Source: Acidobacteriota bacterium (GTDB lineage Bacteria > Actinomycetota > Acidimicrobiia > Acidimicrobiales > CADCSY01). Taken from it: DNA of 32,666 nucleotides. The notes under the pieces were generated by a model. The model was given only the letters and a program-made list of their open reading frames with translations. It made no database searches and was not told the DNA's origin. The DNA lies in assembly GCA_019510095.1 (NCBI GenBank), contig JAEKLB010000031.1, positions 1 to 32,666 of the forward strand. Reading direction: 5' to 3'. Every line of letters starts with the position of its first letter. Within the stretch, counting starts at the first letter, position 1. The position numbers were made by a program, and so were the translations under genes. Shown here in pieces: positions 8,495 through 18,403 of the stretch.

Positions 8495-10972
8495 TTAGAC
8501 GAGGGCGATCTCGCCGTCCTGGGCGTCGACGGTGACCGTTGCACCTTCGGTGTAGCGGCCTTCGAGCATGGCGAGCGCCAGCTGGTCGCCGATCTGCTGC
8601 TGCAGGAGCCGCTTCAGCGGGCGAGCGCCGTACACCGGGTCGAAGCCCTGCTTGGCCAGCAGCAGCTTGGCGGCGTCGGTGACCTCGAGCCGCATGCGCC
8701 GGGCGGCGACGCGCTTGCCGAGGCCCTCCAGTTGGATGTCGACGATGCGGACCAGGTCCTCCTCGGTGAGCGACCGGAAGCGAATGATGTCGTCGATGCG
8801 GTTGACGAACTCGGGCTTGAAGAAGTCGCGAGGATCGCCGGGCAGGTTCGACGTCATGATCAGCACGACGTTGGTGAAGTCGACCGTGCGACCCTTGCCG
8901 TCGGTGAGCCGGCCGTCGTCGAGCAGCTGCAAGAGGACGTTGAACACATCGGGGTGGGCCTTCTCGATCTCGTCGAGGAGAACGACCGCGTAGGGCCGCC
9001 GCCGCACCGCCTCGGTGAGCTGGCCACCCTCGTCGTAGCCGACATAACCGGGAGGGGCCCCGATCAGGCGGGCCACAGAGTGCTTCTCCATGTACTCCGA
9101 CATGTCGATGCGGGTGACCGCGTGCTCGTCGTCGAACAGGAACTCAGCCAGGGCCCGGGCCAGCTCGGTCTTGCCGACACCGGTCGGGCCGAGGAACAGG
9201 AACGACCCGATCGGCCGGTTGGGGTCGGACAGCCCGGCGCGGCTGCGGCGGATGGCATTGGCCACGGCGCGGACGGCGTCCTCCTGGCCGACGACCCGGC
9301 GGTGCAGCTCGTCCTCCATCCGCACCAGCTTCTGGACCTCGCCCTCCATGAGCCGGCTGACCGGGATGCCCGTCCACTTGCTCACGACCTCGGCGACGTC
9401 CTCTTCGTCGACCTCCTCCTTGAGCATGCGCTGGCTCGACTGGAGCTGGTCGAGGTGCTGGGTGGCCTCCTCGATCCGCCGTTCGAGCTCGGGGATCTGG
9501 CCATACCGGATCTCGGCGGCTCGGTTGAGGTCCTGCTCGCGCTCGACCTCGGAGCGCTTCTGCTCCAAGGTCTCCTTGAGGGTCTGGATCTCGGTGATGG
9601 CCTGCTTCTCGCCGGCCCAGTGGGCCTTCATGGCGTCGGACTGCTCGCGCAGGTCGGCCAGCTCGCGGTCGAGCGCGTCCAGCCGCTCCCGCGACGCCGC
9701 GTCGGTCTCCTTGGCCAGCGCGACCCGCTCGATCTCGAGCTGGCGGATGCGCCGCTCGACGACGTCGATCTCGGTCGGCATCGAGTCGATCTCGATGCGA
9801 AGGCGCGATGCCGCCTCGTCGATCAGGTCGATGGCCTTGTCGGGCAGGAACCGCCCGGTGATGTAGCGATCGGACAGCACCGCCGCGGCCACCAGGGCGG
9901 CGTCCTGGATGCGAACGCCGTGGTGGACCTCGTAGCGCTCCTTCAGCCCCCGAAGGATGGCGATGGTGTCCTCGACCGACGGCTGCCCGACGTAGACCTG
10001 CTGGAACCGACGCTCGAGGGCGGGATCGGTCTCGATGTGCTTGCGGAACTCGTCGAGGGTGGTCGCGCCGATCATGCGCAGCTCGCCGCGCGCCAGCATC
10101 GGCTTCAGCATGTTGCCCGCGTCCATTGCGCCCTCGGCCGCGCCGGCACCGACGACGGTGTGCATCTCGTCGATGAAGGTGATGACCTCGCCGCCGGCGT
10201 CGCTGATCTCCTTCAGCACGGCCTTGAGCCGCTCCTCGAACTCGCCGCGGTACTTGGCGCCGGCGACCATCGAGGCGAGGTCGAGCGAGATCACCCGCTT
10301 GCCCTTCAGGCCCTCGGGCACGTCGCCTTCGACGATGCGGCGGGCGAGCCCCTCGACGATCGCCGTCTTGCCGACCCCCGGCTCGCCGATGAGCACGGGG
10401 TTGTTCTTGGTGCGGCGGGACAGCACCTGGATGACCCGGCGGATCTCCTCGTCGCGACCGATGACCGGGTCGAGCTTGCCCTGGCGGGCCGCCTCGGTCA
10501 GGTCGCGCCCGTAGCGCTCCAGCGCCTGGTAGCTCTCCTCCGGGTTCTGGCTGGTCACGCGGTGGCTGCCTCGGACCGACTGCAGTGCCTGCAGGAGCTC
10601 CTCGGTACTGGCGCCGACCTCCGCCGACATCGCCAGCACGACGTGCTCGGTCGAGAGGTACTCGTCGTGCAGGTCGACGCGGACCTTGTCGGCCCGCTCG
10701 ACGACGTCACGCAGCGCTCGCGACAGGCCGGCCTCGCCACCGTACGATCGGGGCAGGCGGGCCAGGCGCTCTTCGGCCTGGGCGCGCAGCGCCCGGGGAT
10801 CGATCCCGACCTTCTGGAGCAGGGGGATCACGACGCCATCGGCCTGGGCGAGCATTGCCACCAGCAGGTGGTCGGGCGTGACCTCGGGATGGCTGGCGGC
10901 CCGGCCGGCCTCGAGGGCCGCGTTGAACGCCTCCTGGGTCTTGATGGTCCAGCGGTTTGGGTCGAACGCCAT
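8495..10972 (-). CDS. clpB: ClpB, AAA+ disaggregase
   Basis: ClpB extracts polypeptides from aggregates with the DnaK system. The 825-residue product has an N-terminal Clp-N double repeat (about 1-145), then NBD1 with Walker A GEPGVGKT and Walker B VITFIDE. The coiled-coil middle domain (about 400-515) is rich in Glu, Arg and Leu. NBD2 has GPTGVGKT, Walker B VVLLDE and sensor MTSN. After MTSN the chain is shorter than usual, running [17 protein letters not shown] where most ClpB proteins have 15-20 more residues before FRPEFLNRID; this explains part of the short length. It is last in the dnaK-grpE-dnaJ-hspR-clpB operon, three bases after the hspR stop, so HspR/HAIR control is expected. Confidence 0.96.
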
Positions 10973-10975
10973 GCG

Positions 10976-11347
10976 TTACCTCTTTCCGAACAACTCGATC
11001 GCTTGGGAGAGCGGCACAAGATCTCGCCGGTAGCTCTGGTGGGCGCGGGCCACGGCGTCGCGCACGGCCGCCTCGGCCTGGGCGAGCGCATCGCGCACCC
11101 GCGCCAGCTCGTCCTCGAGCGCCATCACCCGCTGCACGCCGGCCAGGTTGAGACCCTCGTTGGTGAGGTCCTGGATGCGGCGCAGCCGGTCGATGTCGCG
11201 CTCGCTGTACCGGCGACTGCCACCGGCGGTCCGAGCGGGGTCGACCAGGCCCTTGCGCTCGTAGATGCGGAGGGTCTGGGGATGCACCCCTGCCAGCTCC
11301 GCCGCCACGGAGATCACGAAGACAGCGCGGTTCGGTTCAGTTGCCAC
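10976..11347 (-). CDS. hspR: HspR, MerR-family heat-shock repressor
   Basis: HspR represses the dnaK operon by binding HAIR inverted repeats; in Streptomyces DnaK acts as co-repressor. The 123-residue product has the MerR-type winged helix at about residues 10-75 ([23 protein letters not shown], with [16 protein letters not shown] as wing and helix). A coiled-coil dimerisation helix of about 40 residues follows. Its position between dnaJ and clpB, with a HAIR-like site upstream of dnaK, identifies it as HspR rather than another MerR protein. The start is GTG, six bases after the dnaJ stop. Confidence 0.95.
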
Positions 11348-11353
11348 GGCTCA

Positions 11354-12487
11354 TCACACTCCCAAGTGCGCCCGGGGCGACGAGGTGGTCGCCGCCGCCA
11401 ACGCCTCGACCGCTGTCCGCTCGGCATCGGTCAACTTCGCCGGCACCGCCACCTCCGTCGTCACCAGCAGATCGCCGGTGCCCTTGCCGGTGGCGACGCC
11501 GCGCCCCTTCACGCGGAAGGTGCGGCCCGAGCGGGTGCCCGCCGGGATGCGCAAGGTCACCGGCTCCCCGTCGATCGTCGGCACCTTGATGTCAGCGCCC
11601 AGGACCGCCTCGGCGAACGTGACCGGCACGGTGATGGTGAGGTTGTCGGCCTTCCTCCCGAACATCGGGTGCTTGGCCACGTGCACGACGACGTAGAGAT
11701 CGCCGGCTGGCCCCCCGTTGCGGCCCGGGCCGCCCCGCTCCTTCATGCGGATGCGCTGCCCGGGATGGACACCGGCAGGGATCCTGACCTTCACCGACCG
11801 GGCGCGCCGCTCGACGCCGGTGCCATGACAGGTGGAGCACGGCGTCTCGATGACGTTCCCACGGCCGCCGCACGTGGGGCACGGCGTCGACATGCTGAAG
11901 ACACCCTGGTTCTCGGCGACGGTTCCCCGACCGTGACAGGTGGGGCACGTCCGAGGGACCGTCCCTGGCGCGGCACCGACGCCGTGGCACACCGAGCACG
12001 TCGCCTCACCGTTGAGGTTGACCGAGGTGGTGACCCCTTGGACGCTCTCCTCGAACGACAGGTGGAGCTCGGCCTCCAGATCGGGCCCTCGCTGCGGCCC
12101 GGAGCCGCGCGAGCGTGACCGGCGGCCGGTCGTAGCGCCGCCACCGCCGAACAGGTTGCCGAACAGGTCACCGAGGTCACCGAGGTCGTCGACCCGGAAC
12201 GAGCCGCCGCCCGGGCCACCGGCCCCACCGAAGCCGCTGAAGCCACCGCCCCCGGCAGCGGCCATGCGGCGCACCTCGTCGTACTCCTTGCGCTTCTCGG
12301 CATCGCCGAGCACGTCGTAGGCAGCCGAGATCTCCTTGAACCGCTCCTCGTGCCCGGGGTTGGCGTCGGGGTGGTTCTCCTTCGCCAGGTTCCGGTAGGC
12401 GCGCGTGATCTCCTTCGGGGTGGCGCCCTCGGCGACACCGAGCACCGCGTAGTAGTCCTTCTCGAACCATTCGCGCTGCGGCGCCAT
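11354..12487 (-). CDS. dnaJ: DnaJ, Hsp40 co-chaperone
   Basis: DnaJ stimulates DnaK ATPase and delivers substrates. The 377-residue product has a J domain (about 8-75) with the catalytic HPD in KENHPDANPG, a G/F-rich linker (GGGGFSGFGGAGGPGGG), and four CxxCxGxG zinc-finger repeats (CSVCHGVG, CPTCHGRG, CPTCGGRG, CSTCHGTG). The C-terminal substrate-binding beta domains follow. All features of a type I DnaJ are intact. It starts at an ATG five bases after the grpE stop and is followed directly by hspR. Confidence 0.96.
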   Translation of the reverse strand: MAPQREWFEKDYYAVLGVAEGATPKEITRAYRNLAKENHPDANPGHEERFKEISAAYDVLGDAEKRKEYDEVRRMAAAGGGGFSGFGGAGGPGGGSFRVDDLGDLGDLFGNLFGGGGATTGRRSRSRGSGPQRGPDLEAELHLSFEESVQGVTTSVNLNGEATCSVCHGVGAAPGTVPRTCPTCHGRGTVAENQGVFSMSTPCPTCGGRGNVIETPCSTCHGTGVERRARSVKVRIPAGVHPGQRIRMKERGGPGRNGGPAGDLYVVVHVAKHPMFGRKADNLTITVPVTFAEAVLGADIKVPTIDGEPVTLRIPAGTRSGRTFRVKGRGVATGKGTGDLLVTTEVAVPAKLTDAERTAVEALAAATTSSPRAHLGV

Positions 12488-12491
12488 CGCC

Positions 12492-13015
12492 CTAGTTCCT
12501 GACGCGGACCATCACGGGCCGGAGCAGATGGCCCTGCCAGCGGTAACCCGCCCGAAGTGACTCGGCGACCACGGGCTCCTTGTCGTCGCCGGGCTCGTGG
12601 GCGACGGCGTCGTGCTCGTTCGGGTCGAAGGGCTCGCCTTCCTTCGGCTCGATCCGGGCCAACCCTTCCTTCTCGAGCGCCAACAGCATCTGCTCACGCA
12701 GCGGTGCCAGCGAACCATCGCCGTGGGCAACGCCGTAGTCGAAGGCGTCGAGCACCGGCAGCAGGTTCTCGACCAGCCGCCCCGACGCCCGCGACACCTC
12801 CTCGGCCTGCTGCTTCATCATCCGCTTGCGGAAGTTCTCGAACTCCGCCTGCTTCGACTTGGCCAGGTTGAGGTACTCCTCAGCCCGGGCAGTGACAGCT
12901 TCGAGATCCGAGATGAGCGACTCGACGCTGGGGCCGGCGCCGTCGTCCTCGGAGGCATCGTCCACCGCGTCGAGCACGACGTCCTCCTCCCCGGACGGCG
13001 CTCCGCCGTTCTCGG

Positions 13016-13019
<4 letters not shown>
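12492..13019 (-). CDS. grpE: GrpE, DnaK nucleotide exchange factor
   Basis: GrpE releases ADP from DnaK. The 175-residue product has an acidic, disordered N-terminus ([16 protein letters not shown]), a long coiled coil (about 30-100: [20 protein letters not shown] and on) including FENFRKRM, and a C-terminal beta domain with the conserved [10 protein letters not shown] and [16 protein letters not shown]. The GTG start overlaps the dnaK stop as GTGA, indicating translational coupling that would hold GrpE in proportion to DnaK. Confidence 0.96.
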
Positions 13020-14845
<1,826 letters not shown>

Positions 14846-14883
14846 TCCGAGTCCTCCGACGAAGAGACGTTTGGTTGCCCAGC

Positions 14884-14889
14884 AGTGTA
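14884..14889 (-). promoter_or_regulatory. Putative -10 box of the dnaK operon
   Basis: TACACT on the minus strand; transcription would start near 14877, giving a leader of about 30 bases that contains the GGAGG site. The expected -35 region lies at 14906-14912, just downstream of the HAIR-like repeat in the direction of transcription. Confidence 0.5.
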
Positions 14890-14896
14890 GCGACCC

Positions 14897-17581
14897 TTAT
14901 ATGGGTTCCACCAGAGAAGTTGAGTCATCCACTATCAAGAATGTGGCATCGGCCCACTCGGCCATGGCCGGAGCCGGCTGGGGTCGGGCGAAGAAGAAGC
15001 CCTGGGCGGCGTGGCAGCCCCGGCGAAGGAGCGCAGCGGCCTGGGCTGCCGACTCGATCCCTTCGGCCACGACGGCGAGGCGCATGCGGTCGGCCATCGC
15101 CAGCATCACCCCGACCAGGGGCGCCTCCGTCCCGGCGTCGAGCTCGGCCACGAACGACCGGTCGATCTTGAGCTCGTCGACCGGCAGCGCCTGGAGCCGG
15201 CCCAGCGAGGAGTAGCCGGCACCGAAGTCGTCGACCGAGAGGCGGATACCGAGCGCCCGGAGGGCGTGCAGCTCGGCCTCGACCTCGTCGTGACCGACGG
15301 TGAGGGCGCCCTCGGTGATCTCGAGGGTCAGCAGCTGCTCGGCGAGCTCCGCCCGATCGAGCGCCTCACGAACGAGGGCGTCGAGGCCACGGTCCTGGAG
15401 TTGGCGGATGGCCACGTTGACCGAGACCGACAGCGGGGGCCCGTCGGGCCGGAACACCTGCCAGGCGGCCGCATCGGCGCACGCCCTGCGGAGCACCCAC
15501 CCACCGAGCGAGCCGATCAGGCCGATGTCCTCGGCGATCGGGATGAACTCGGCGGGCGGCAGAACGGTGCCGTCTGGCAGGGGCAGGCGGACGAGCGCCT
15601 CGGCGCCGATGACCCGGCCGCTGGCCAGCTCGACGATCGGTTGGTACTCGAGCAGCAGCCGGCCGTCGTCAACTGCGGCGCGGAGCTGGACCTCGATCAT
15701 CTGTCGCCGCACCACGTCCCGGTGCATGTCATCGGTGAAGACCTCGAACCGACTCTTGCCCCGGCGCTTGGCCACGTACATGGCGACGTCGGCGTCCCGG
15801 AGCAGGTCCGCGGCTGCGACAGTGCTGTCCCGGCGGCCGGCGACGCCGGCAGAACCGGCGCACCGAACGTCCTGGCCGTCGACGCGGAGGGCAAGCGAGA
15901 GGTCGTCGATGAGCCGCCTGGCAACGGTGGTCGCCACCGCCGCCCCGGGATCGTGGACGACGAGCACCGCGAACTCGTCACCACCGAGGCGGGCGACCAG
16001 ATCGCCCGGCCGGATGCAGCGGCGCAGCCGGTCGGCCACCGCCATGAGCAGGTGATCGCCCAGCTGGTGCCCGGAGGTGTCGTTCACTGCCTTGAAATCG
16101 TCGAGGTCGAGCAGCACGAGCGAGGGCGACTGGCCGGCCACCAGCGCCTGTTCCAGCGCGGCGTGCAGGTGCCTGCGGTTGGCCAGCCCGGTGAGCTCGT
16201 CGTGGTGGGCCTGCTGGCGAAGCTGCTCCTCGAATGCGTGCCGCTCGGTCACATCTCGGAAGGTGACGAGCACGCCGCCGAGCGCCGAATCGGCGCCGAG
16301 GTTGCTGTAGCGGGCGTCCATGGGGCACCACGTCCCGTCGGCGCGAAGCACCCGCATCGAGCTGGACCCAGCTGCCCCAGGGTGGTGGAACACCTTGGTG
16401 TGCTCCCCCGGCTTGAGCCGCCGGAGATCGTCCGGATGGACGAGGTCGGACATCGGGCGGCCGATGACATCCGCGGGCTGGTACCCGAGCACCGCGGTCA
16501 CCGACGGGCTCACCTCGTTGATGCCGTCTCTCCCGATCACCACGACGACGTCGGAGATGGCCTGGACGATCGAGCGGAAGTGCTGCTCCCGCTCCCGAAG
16601 CTCGGCAGTTCGCTCGTCGACCCGCGCCTCGAGGGTCCGCGCCCACTGGTGGTTCTCCCAGAGGCTGACGATCTGGCGGGAGATCACGGCGAGCACCAGG
16701 GCGACGAGCGGCAAGGCCGCCCAGCCGCTGACGGCGTCGTAGTCGACGGAGCCAATGAGGAAGGCAACCAGCGCCAGCGGATACGGCAGCAGCAGCTCCC
16801 ACCGCGAGTTGACCCGCCGCTCGATCGGCTGCGACGGTCGGCGATCGGCCAAGGGCGAGAAACCCACGCCGAGGTAGCCGGCGATCCACACCAGCGCCAT
16901 CAGGTGGCCGCCGACCTGGCCACCCGTGGCCACCCGGTAGGCCCAGGTCGAGTCGCCGACCGCCAGCAGCAGCATCGACCCGCTGACCAACCACCAGGGG
17001 AGCCGGTCCCGCCTCGGCCTCTGGACCATGACCATGGCAGCCAGGCAGGCCGCCGTCGTGTCGAGCGCGGGATACAGCCAGAGGAAGTTGCCGTGCTCGG
17101 TACGTAGGAGCGCCCACCACAGGACCCAGATGGCAGAGACGGCGAGGATGAAGCCGTCGAGCATGGTGCGGACCACGGCGGCCGCGCTCACAACGGTGCG
17201 CAGCAGCAGCAGGCAGGCGACGACTACGAGGCCGAGCGATGCCGTGTAGAAGACGTCGACGAACGAGATGGTGGGCAGGTCGCGATCGAGCACGACCTCG
17301 TAGACCACCCGCCCGACGCTGGCGGCCGTCCAGCACAGGGCGGCGGCGGCGAACAACAGGGTGCGCACGGCGACAGGGCCCTCGCCGTAGCTACGGGCGC
17401 AGCGCCACAGCAGCGCGGTCGCAAGTGCCGAGGACGCGACCAACGCCAGGTCGTTGACCACGAGGTGGGCGCGATCGGGCCCGATGCCCGACAGGTGCCA
17501 GAGGGCCAAGGCCGCCAACACCCCAGCAGCCAGGCGCACTGCCCGTCGCAGGCTCACGTTTGCGGACCTCATCGCCTGCAT
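14897..17581 (-). CDS. Membrane PAS-GGDEF-EAL cyclic-di-GMP protein
   Basis: A composite enzyme of about 894 residues that may both make and break cyclic-di-GMP at the membrane. The N-terminal ~310 residues hold about eight hydrophobic helices resembling an integral sensory region. A short coiled coil ([21 protein letters not shown]) and a PAS domain follow. The diguanylate cyclase has an intact GGDEF ([10 protein letters not shown], near 532), and the phosphodiesterase domain has EAL (GAEALVRL, near 660). EAL metal and catalytic residues look complete ([43 protein letters not shown]). Both activities could therefore be real. The start is uncertain: I used ATG 17581; TTG 17602 and ATG 17572 are alternatives. 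The last ~18 residues lie beyond the EAL fold and share DNA with the dnaK operator. Confidence 0.9.
14919..14939. promoter_or_regulatory. HAIR-like HspR operator of the dnaK operon
   Basis: In the dnaK direction this reads CTTGATA-N7-ACTCAAC. The HAIR consensus is CTTGAGT-N7-ACTCAAG, so the halves match 5/7 and 6/7 with exact spacing. It lies about 30 bases upstream of the putative -10 and 74 bases before the dnaK start, next to the -35 region where an HspR repressor would block RNA polymerase. It also lies inside the final codons of the upstream GGDEF-EAL gene. Confidence 0.7.
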
Positions 17582-17634
17582 TCTCGGCACAATCGATCCC
17601 AAGGATTAGCTCCGGCCCCGAGAATTCGAGACGC

Positions 17635-17647: not shown

Positions 17648-18403
17648 GTGGCCACCCTCGTGCTGCTGCGTCACGGCCAGAGCGTCTGGAACGAGCAGGA
17701 TCTGTTCACCGGCTGGCACGACGTCGATCTCACGCGACTGGGGGAGCAGGAAGCCCGCGACGGCGGCCGCCTCTTGCTCGAATCGGGCATTGAGGTCGAT
17801 GTGGTGCACACCTCACTCCTCCGTCGCGCCATCCGCACCGCGAACCTCGCGCTCGAGGAGGCGGACCGGCTCTGGATACCGACCCGCCGGCACTGGCGGC
17901 TCAACGAACGCCACTACGGCGACCTGCAAGGCCGGAACAAGACCGAGACCGCCCAGCGCTACGGCGAGGCCCAGCTCAAGGTCTGGCGCCGCTCCTACGA
18001 CATCCCGCCCCCGCCCGTCACGCCGGACAACCCCCGTCATCCTCGGTTCGATCCCCGCTACGCCACCCTGCCACCCGACCTGCTGCCGGCCAGCGAATGC
18101 CTGCGCGACGTCGTCGACCGGATGCTCCCGTACTGGCACGACCACATCTGCGTCGACCTGCTCGAAGGACGGGTCGTGCTCGTCGCCGCCCATGGCAACA
18201 GCATCCGGGCGCTGGTGAAGCACCTCGACGGGATCTCCGACGCCGACATCGCCGAGGTCAACGTCCCGACCGGGCTACCGCTGGTCTACGAGCTCGACGA
18301 GCACCTCGTGCCGGTGAAGAGCAACTACCTCGGCGACCCCGCCGAGGCGGCCCGCAAGGCGGCCGCGGTGGCAGCCCAGGGCTCGGTGCCGCCCAACCGC
18401 TAG
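17648..18403 (+). CDS. gpmA: 2,3-bisphosphoglycerate-dependent phosphoglycerate mutase
   Basis: GpmA interconverts 3- and 2-phosphoglycerate in glycolysis and gluconeogenesis. The 251-residue product starts [23 protein letters not shown], with the phosphohistidine in RHGQS near residue 9. It has the [18 protein letters not shown] substrate loop, the dPGM insertion (SYDIPPPPV), and the second catalytic histidine in [15 protein letters not shown] near 183. The reading frame is open far upstream, but similarity begins at this GTG. It is divergent from the cyclic-di-GMP gene and ends exactly where the convergent amt stop begins, with no bases between. Confidence 0.95.

Follow-up and report, generated by a model that had tools for sequence, protein, structure and literature searches.

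Why should the probable operator of a heat shock operon lie within the last codons of a cyclic-di-GMP gene, and what would it do there? The question is raised by a window of 32,666 nucleotides (the whole stretch of DNA analysed, contig C18 of a 2.95 Mb genome in 227 contigs), in which the minus strand from 14939 to 14919 reads CTTGATA-GTGGATG-ACTCAAC. This near-palindrome, whose two arms are separated by exactly 7 nt, matches the published HAIR consensus, CTTGAGT-N7-ACTCAAG as quoted in PMC6102357, at 11 of 14 bases and differs at 3. An earlier note on this DNA had described the repeat, its spacing and its fit to the consensus, and all three are confirmed from the letters of the minus strand. 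We consider it likely that the site is the ancestral operator of a five-gene operon autoregulated by HspR, overrun by the frame of a GGDEF-EAL gene as a by-product of the arrangement of the genes. The account is built on four observations, namely the sequence of the site, its conservation, the order of the genes and the odd codons at the end of the GGDEF-EAL frame.

Results

The putative operator (14919-14939, minus strand) lies 74-94 nt upstream of dnaK (13016-14845; Pfam HSP70, and NCBIfam DnaK equivalog TIGR02350 above its cut-off), the first of five genes that all lie on the minus strand and would be transcribed together. It is followed by grpE (12492-13019, Pfam GrpE), dnaJ (11354-12487, Pfam DnaJ, DnaJ_C and the central domain), hspR (10976-11347) and clpB, last of the row (8495-10972; NCBIfam ClpB equivalog TIGR03346, 1279 bits for a cut-off of 1232.1). 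HspR, a MerR-type protein and the presumed repressor of the operator, is recognised by the NCBIfam equivalog NF047375 with 122.8 bits, for a cut-off of 105. We also note that clpB starts only 3 nt after hspR (window 8495-11347). The features that define a HAIR site, i.e. two arms with a 7 nt gap, a position upstream of a chaperone gene and an HspR orthologue encoded in the genome, are all found here. Judging from this type of operon and the G+C content, the DNA is probably actinobacterial.

The gene whose last codons hold the site is a PAS-GGDEF-EAL gene (14897-17602, minus strand; Pfam PAS, GGDEF and EAL), with a homologue in a related genome, G006 (47% identity over residues 39-879). In this ORF of 901 codons, read from 17602 to 14897, the operator starts with the third base of codon 888, stops at the second base of codon 895, and occupies bases 20-40 upstream of the stop codon (14899-14897). 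The Pfam EAL match stops at residue 874 (profile positions 3-236 of 236), so that the operator is coded outside the domain, which bears out the position that the earlier note had given it.

A HAIR pattern with 3 mismatches is not rare by itself, and is weak evidence. Scanning the window with the bare pattern gave 1 match for 0.44 expected, and 32 of 100 shuffled sequences contained at least one. Genome-wide, 29 places were found with at most 3 mismatches, compared to 78 for a reversed control pattern; by simple arithmetic, 29 places in 2.95 Mb correspond to ∼0.002 expected in any 200 nt. The significance of the operator comes therefore from its place and its conservation, rather than from the bare pattern. 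A pattern fitted on the sites of relatives, STTGAHR-N7-RCTCAAS, defined after the window site had already been seen, has its sole exact genome-wide match at the operator. With a scoring matrix built on 77 exact-core sites from other genomes, own site excluded, the operator scored 27.8 (training median, 25.5); the opposite strand at the same place reached 15.9, and elsewhere in the window the best score was 10.8. The comparison with this matrix also indicated that the three bases departing from the consensus are all common in the sites of relatives; two of them form the terminal TA of the left arm, which is the commonest ending outside the window's family (TA in 50 of 112 loci, CA in 37 of 112). 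Given that the search for further HspR targets at 3 mismatches revealed no enrichment over the reversed control, and that the fitted pattern has a single exact match, no wider regulon is claimed. With clpB directly behind hspR and no second exact fitted HAIR, HspR may control one operon only.

To place the operator among its relatives, 154 dnaK loci were pooled from draws of 30, 8 (of 9), 19 and 97. L054, a second dnaK-like locus of G006 with 57% identity, and L267, with 113 nt of upstream sequence, were dropped before the 153-locus counts, and the second dnaK copy of G075 was left out. G010, G021, G054, G063 and G126 contributed no dnaK start; G083 was excluded because of a contig edge, and G047, G064, G072, G118, G130 and G142 because they had no dnaK match at 1e-200. 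In a set of 38 loci, 26 had an exact TTGA-N11-TCAA core in the 200 nt that precede dnaK, own locus included (25 of 37 without it), while 40 dinucleotide shuffles of the same 38 loci gave a mean of 0.075 and a maximum of 1. In the 153-locus set (one locus per genome, 250 nt), which was counted directly, the shuffle control pertaining to the 38 loci, the core was found with at most one mismatch in 123 loci, own included. Over the 153 loci, the core had no mismatch in 78, 1 in 45, 2 in 23, 3 in 6 and 4 in 1.

The presence of the repeat was then related to that of the repressor. In the order, 158 genomes were searched for HspR and 143 gave a match (E≤1e-20); the HspR status of the family genomes outside this draw came from a separate search. 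HAIR was absent from 9 of the 13 loci of genomes without HspR match, compared to 21 of the 140 others (Fisher p 5.8e-5). Repressor and operator have thus apparently been lost together at nine dnaK loci. These loci (L049, L292, L294 and L303-L308) belong to three families, f26, f50 and f55, and so correspond to few independent events. HAIR thus recurs at this position among relatives and disappears together with hspR, with exceptions on both sides: four genomes (G001, G012, G035 and G055, assemblies of 160-670 contigs) keep HAIR though no HspR match was found in them, and G026 has hspR and no HAIR before its dnaK. More generally, in the 21 of 140 loci of HspR-bearing genomes that lack a core with at most one mismatch, HspR must bind elsewhere or at degenerate sites.

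The earlier note had taken the repeat for a HAIR-like operator serving the dnaK operon, a proposal to be refuted if related genomes kept the operon and lacked the repeat. On this point the relatives speak mostly in its favour, as 123 of the 153 loci have the core; 30 do not, and 21 of those belong to HspR-bearing genomes. Conservation in relatives, the presence of hspR in the gene row and the co-loss of operator and repressor all support the proposal, and positions 14919-14939 very probably serve as the operator through which HspR controls the dnaK-grpE-dnaJ-hspR-clpB row.

We next turn to the promoter on which such an operator would act. A scan of positions 14700-15100 for a sigma-70 consensus promoter found none. 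A candidate comes from comparison with relatives, using the 123 loci, among L016-L053 and L194-L309, that have a core with at most one mismatch. A TAnnnT motif 26-31 nt after HAIR is present in 11 of 11 loci of the window's family, compared to 6 of the 112 others, with a p value of 8e-12 that overstates the contrast, as the tests were devised with the pattern already in view and the rows are related. A TG at positions +6 and +7 after HAIR, part of a putative −35 adjoining the repeat, follows the same division, being present in all 11 family loci and in 13 of the 112 others. In the window, these motifs correspond to a putative −10, TACACT (14884-14889, minus strand), 29 nt after HAIR and 7 nt past the stop codon, and to a putative −35, CTGGTG (14909-14914, minus strand), a weak match to the consensus lying inside the GGDEF-EAL gene. 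The TAA stop of the GGDEF-EAL frame falls between the two. The stop codon also offers TATAAG as an alternative −10, which we set aside, as TACACT sits at the distance common to the family.

Outside the family the picture differs: in 84 of 112 loci TAnnnT follows HAIR at 2-6 nt (5 nt being the commonest distance), which it does in none of the 11 family loci. With a −10 so close, the left arm of HAIR can double as the −35. The commonest spacer is 19 nt in both placements (53 of the 84 short-distance loci); the range is 16-21 in the window's family and 17-20 elsewhere, within the range examined. A 19 nt spacer recalls the promoters controlled by MerR-type proteins. This reading was not retained, since spacers vary, and the TG that precedes the −10 in 43 of 112 loci provides a plainer reason. 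The comparison suggests that the dnaK promoter has two placements relative to HAIR within a single order. Such a difference would help to decide if repression comes from HspR lying over the −35 and the spacer, or from just upstream.

As to how operator and frame came to overlap, the neighbours are informative. On the plus strand, positions 17648-18394 encode a member of the histidine phosphatase superfamily (Pfam His_Phos_1), which we take to be phosphoglycerate-mutase-like, and which is a homologue of the gene that many relatives have upstream of dnaK. Of the 153 loci, 89 have such a gene ahead of dnaK and pointing away from it; HAIR is present in 72 of these 89, and lies between the two genes in all 72. 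In the window, the GGDEF-EAL gene intervenes between dnaK and this neighbour. The comparison covered 1.2-1.5 kb upstream of dnaK, and in this stretch a GGDEF-EAL homologue was found in the window's genome and in G006 only. The DnaK N-terminus of G006 is, among family loci, the closest to that of the window (94.2% over 120 residues), and the same mutase-like neighbour is found beyond its GGDEF-EAL homologue. There, a tauE/safE gene, divergent from dnaK, stands between the GGDEF-EAL homologue and dnaK.

Two further observations concern this tauE/safE gene. In G006 (L056:1450-1543), the 3′ end of the GGDEF-EAL gene overlaps the convergent tauE/safE gene by 94 nt, meaning that the GGDEF-EAL tail is there also read from a neighbour's DNA. 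The window's own genome contains a homologue of the G006 TauE/SafE gene (G000:C48:41107-41834), matched in two overlapping stretches, which is perhaps a frameshifted copy.

Since relatives have HAIR before dnaK, and the mutase-like gene is their frequent neighbour, the operator appears to be older than the overlap. We take it to go back to an ancestor of the order; that the GGDEF-EAL frame overran it later we infer from the gene order and the codon bias of one genome, the single representative of its genus among those searched. Of the 123 HAIR-bearing loci, 31 have a mechanical, same-strand ORF of at least 100 codons covering the site, the window's being the only one whose protein has family support. 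Among these 31 loci, 15 with the divergent neighbour were left unscanned, in L051 tauE occupies the opposite strand, and the Pfam scan of the remaining 14 gave no match (10 + 4), which does not prove that none of the 14 is a gene.

The overlap has left its mark on the coding sequence. The last 18 codons (14900-14953, minus strand), read through the operator and the putative −35, have a GC3 of 0.50, compared to 0.897 for the whole gene and lower than in all 866 overlapping 18-codon windows of its body. They contain ACA, ATA, TCA, ACT and TCT, codons used only 2-6 times each among 3010 codons (six genes, tail included). Comparison with the tail of the G006 homologue gave no similarity. The length of the tail is ordinary: it extends 21 residues past position 880, for a median of 16 among 108 other EAL proteins (L148 and the window's own protein excluded), 40 of which have at least 21. 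Its length therefore needs no operator as explanation, whereas its sequence does. The earlier note had supposed that the tail may exist because of the operator. Judging from GC3 and codon use, its sequence does reflect the operator; that it was added for the operator does not fit an ancestral site overrun by the frame.

Discussion

According to the portions of PMC10415612 and PMC6102357 on which we draw, HspR holds HAIR with DnaK as co-repressor and releases it upon heat, and the H. pylori protein covers 70-80 bp. If HspR protected as much DNA around a centre at 14929, the putative −35 would be covered and the edge would come close to the −10, which makes repression of the dnaK operon the most likely function of the operator. 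HspR, with DnaK as co-repressor, would bind 14919-14939 and deny RNA polymerase access to the dnaK promoter next to it; upon heat, HspR would leave the site and dnaK, grpE, dnaJ, hspR and clpB would be made. In this lineage, the GGDEF-EAL gene would have come to separate dnaK from the divergent gene that is often its neighbour, with a frame that runs through the older operator and −35 and stops at TAA before the −10, the overlap being a by-product of this arrangement.

Two other relations between tail and operator can be envisaged. The C-terminal tail might be a functional element of the protein whose likeness to HAIR is a coincidence. The frame is intact, and matches of this quality to the bare pattern occur, as seen above, at 29 places in the genome; against this stand the dissimilar tail of the G006 homologue, the odd codon use, and the fact that the site sits where relatives carry HAIR and is the sole exact match of their pattern, and we hold such a coincidence to be very improbable. 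Conversely the tail might have been added, or kept, in order to carry the operator, which comes nearest to the wording of the earlier note. Tail and operator do coincide, but relatives without such a gene at this place still have HAIR before dnaK, and the tail is of ordinary length; this too has very little chance of being correct.

The earlier note had also suggested readthrough or a roadblock, and the two can be joined into a functional link between the genes: transcripts of the GGDEF-EAL gene would read through into the dnaK operon, with HspR as a roadblock relieved by heat, tying a cyclic-di-GMP gene to the chaperones. The genes have the same orientation, with 51 nt from the GGDEF-EAL stop to the dnaK start. 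No U-tailed terminator was found in 14700-15100 (the scan covers this type, not U-less or factor-dependent ones), and the RNA of 14846-14960 has no unusual structure (z −0.30). In the absence of a T-run terminator between the genes, readthrough is possible. However, the arrangement is found in one genome only, and in G006 a convergent gene separates the GGDEF-EAL homologue from dnaK; moreover, in the part of PMC6102357 considered here, speA mRNA is unchanged in an H. pylori hspR mutant, although HspR binds within the 3′ portion of that gene. We regard this coupling as unlikely. That HspR acts on two transcripts, repressing the dnaK promoter and also halting GGDEF-EAL transcripts at their last codons, we find about as unlikely. 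If it did, heat would both open the promoter and let transcription from the cyclic-di-GMP gene enter the chaperone operon, so that cyclic-di-GMP turnover would be coupled to heat shock.

Repression of the dnaK promoter from an overrun ancestral operator, the reading we prefer, relates the site to known systems. As far as the sources quoted describe them, the HAIR sites of the Streptomyces dnaK operon and clpB and of mycobacterial dnaK share with the window an inverted repeat with a 7 nt gap, a position before dnaK, and hspR in the row. The window differs in its left arm (TTGATA instead of TTGAGT) and its last base, C, both common in its order, in having clpB directly behind hspR, and in having its operator within the codons of the upstream gene. 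A single HAIR copy was seen in it, whereas S. coelicolor is quoted with three.

For the coding context, the part of PMC6102357 used here describes in H. pylori speA an HspR site in coding DNA near the 3′ end of a gene, as binding in the window would be. The speA site lies 250-298 nt before the stop and is apparently not tied to transcription control; the window site, unlike it, adjoins the putative promoter of the downstream gene. The speA case sets a precedent for intragenic HspR binding, and warns against taking a roadblock for granted. PtsaD, within rimI of the alr-groEL1 operon, is similarly a downstream promoter in upstream coding sequence, unlike the window in that no HAIR operator was found in the portion of PMC5335608 covered. 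Among the titles and abstract openings of the matches listed in a literature search, there was no report of a dnaK HAIR inside the codons of an upstream gene.

What the window contains is very probably a plain HspR operator, remarkable only for the coding sequence in which it lies. It would be a clear example of a reading frame that overran an old operator, where selection on the site of a repressor writes the end of an unrelated protein.
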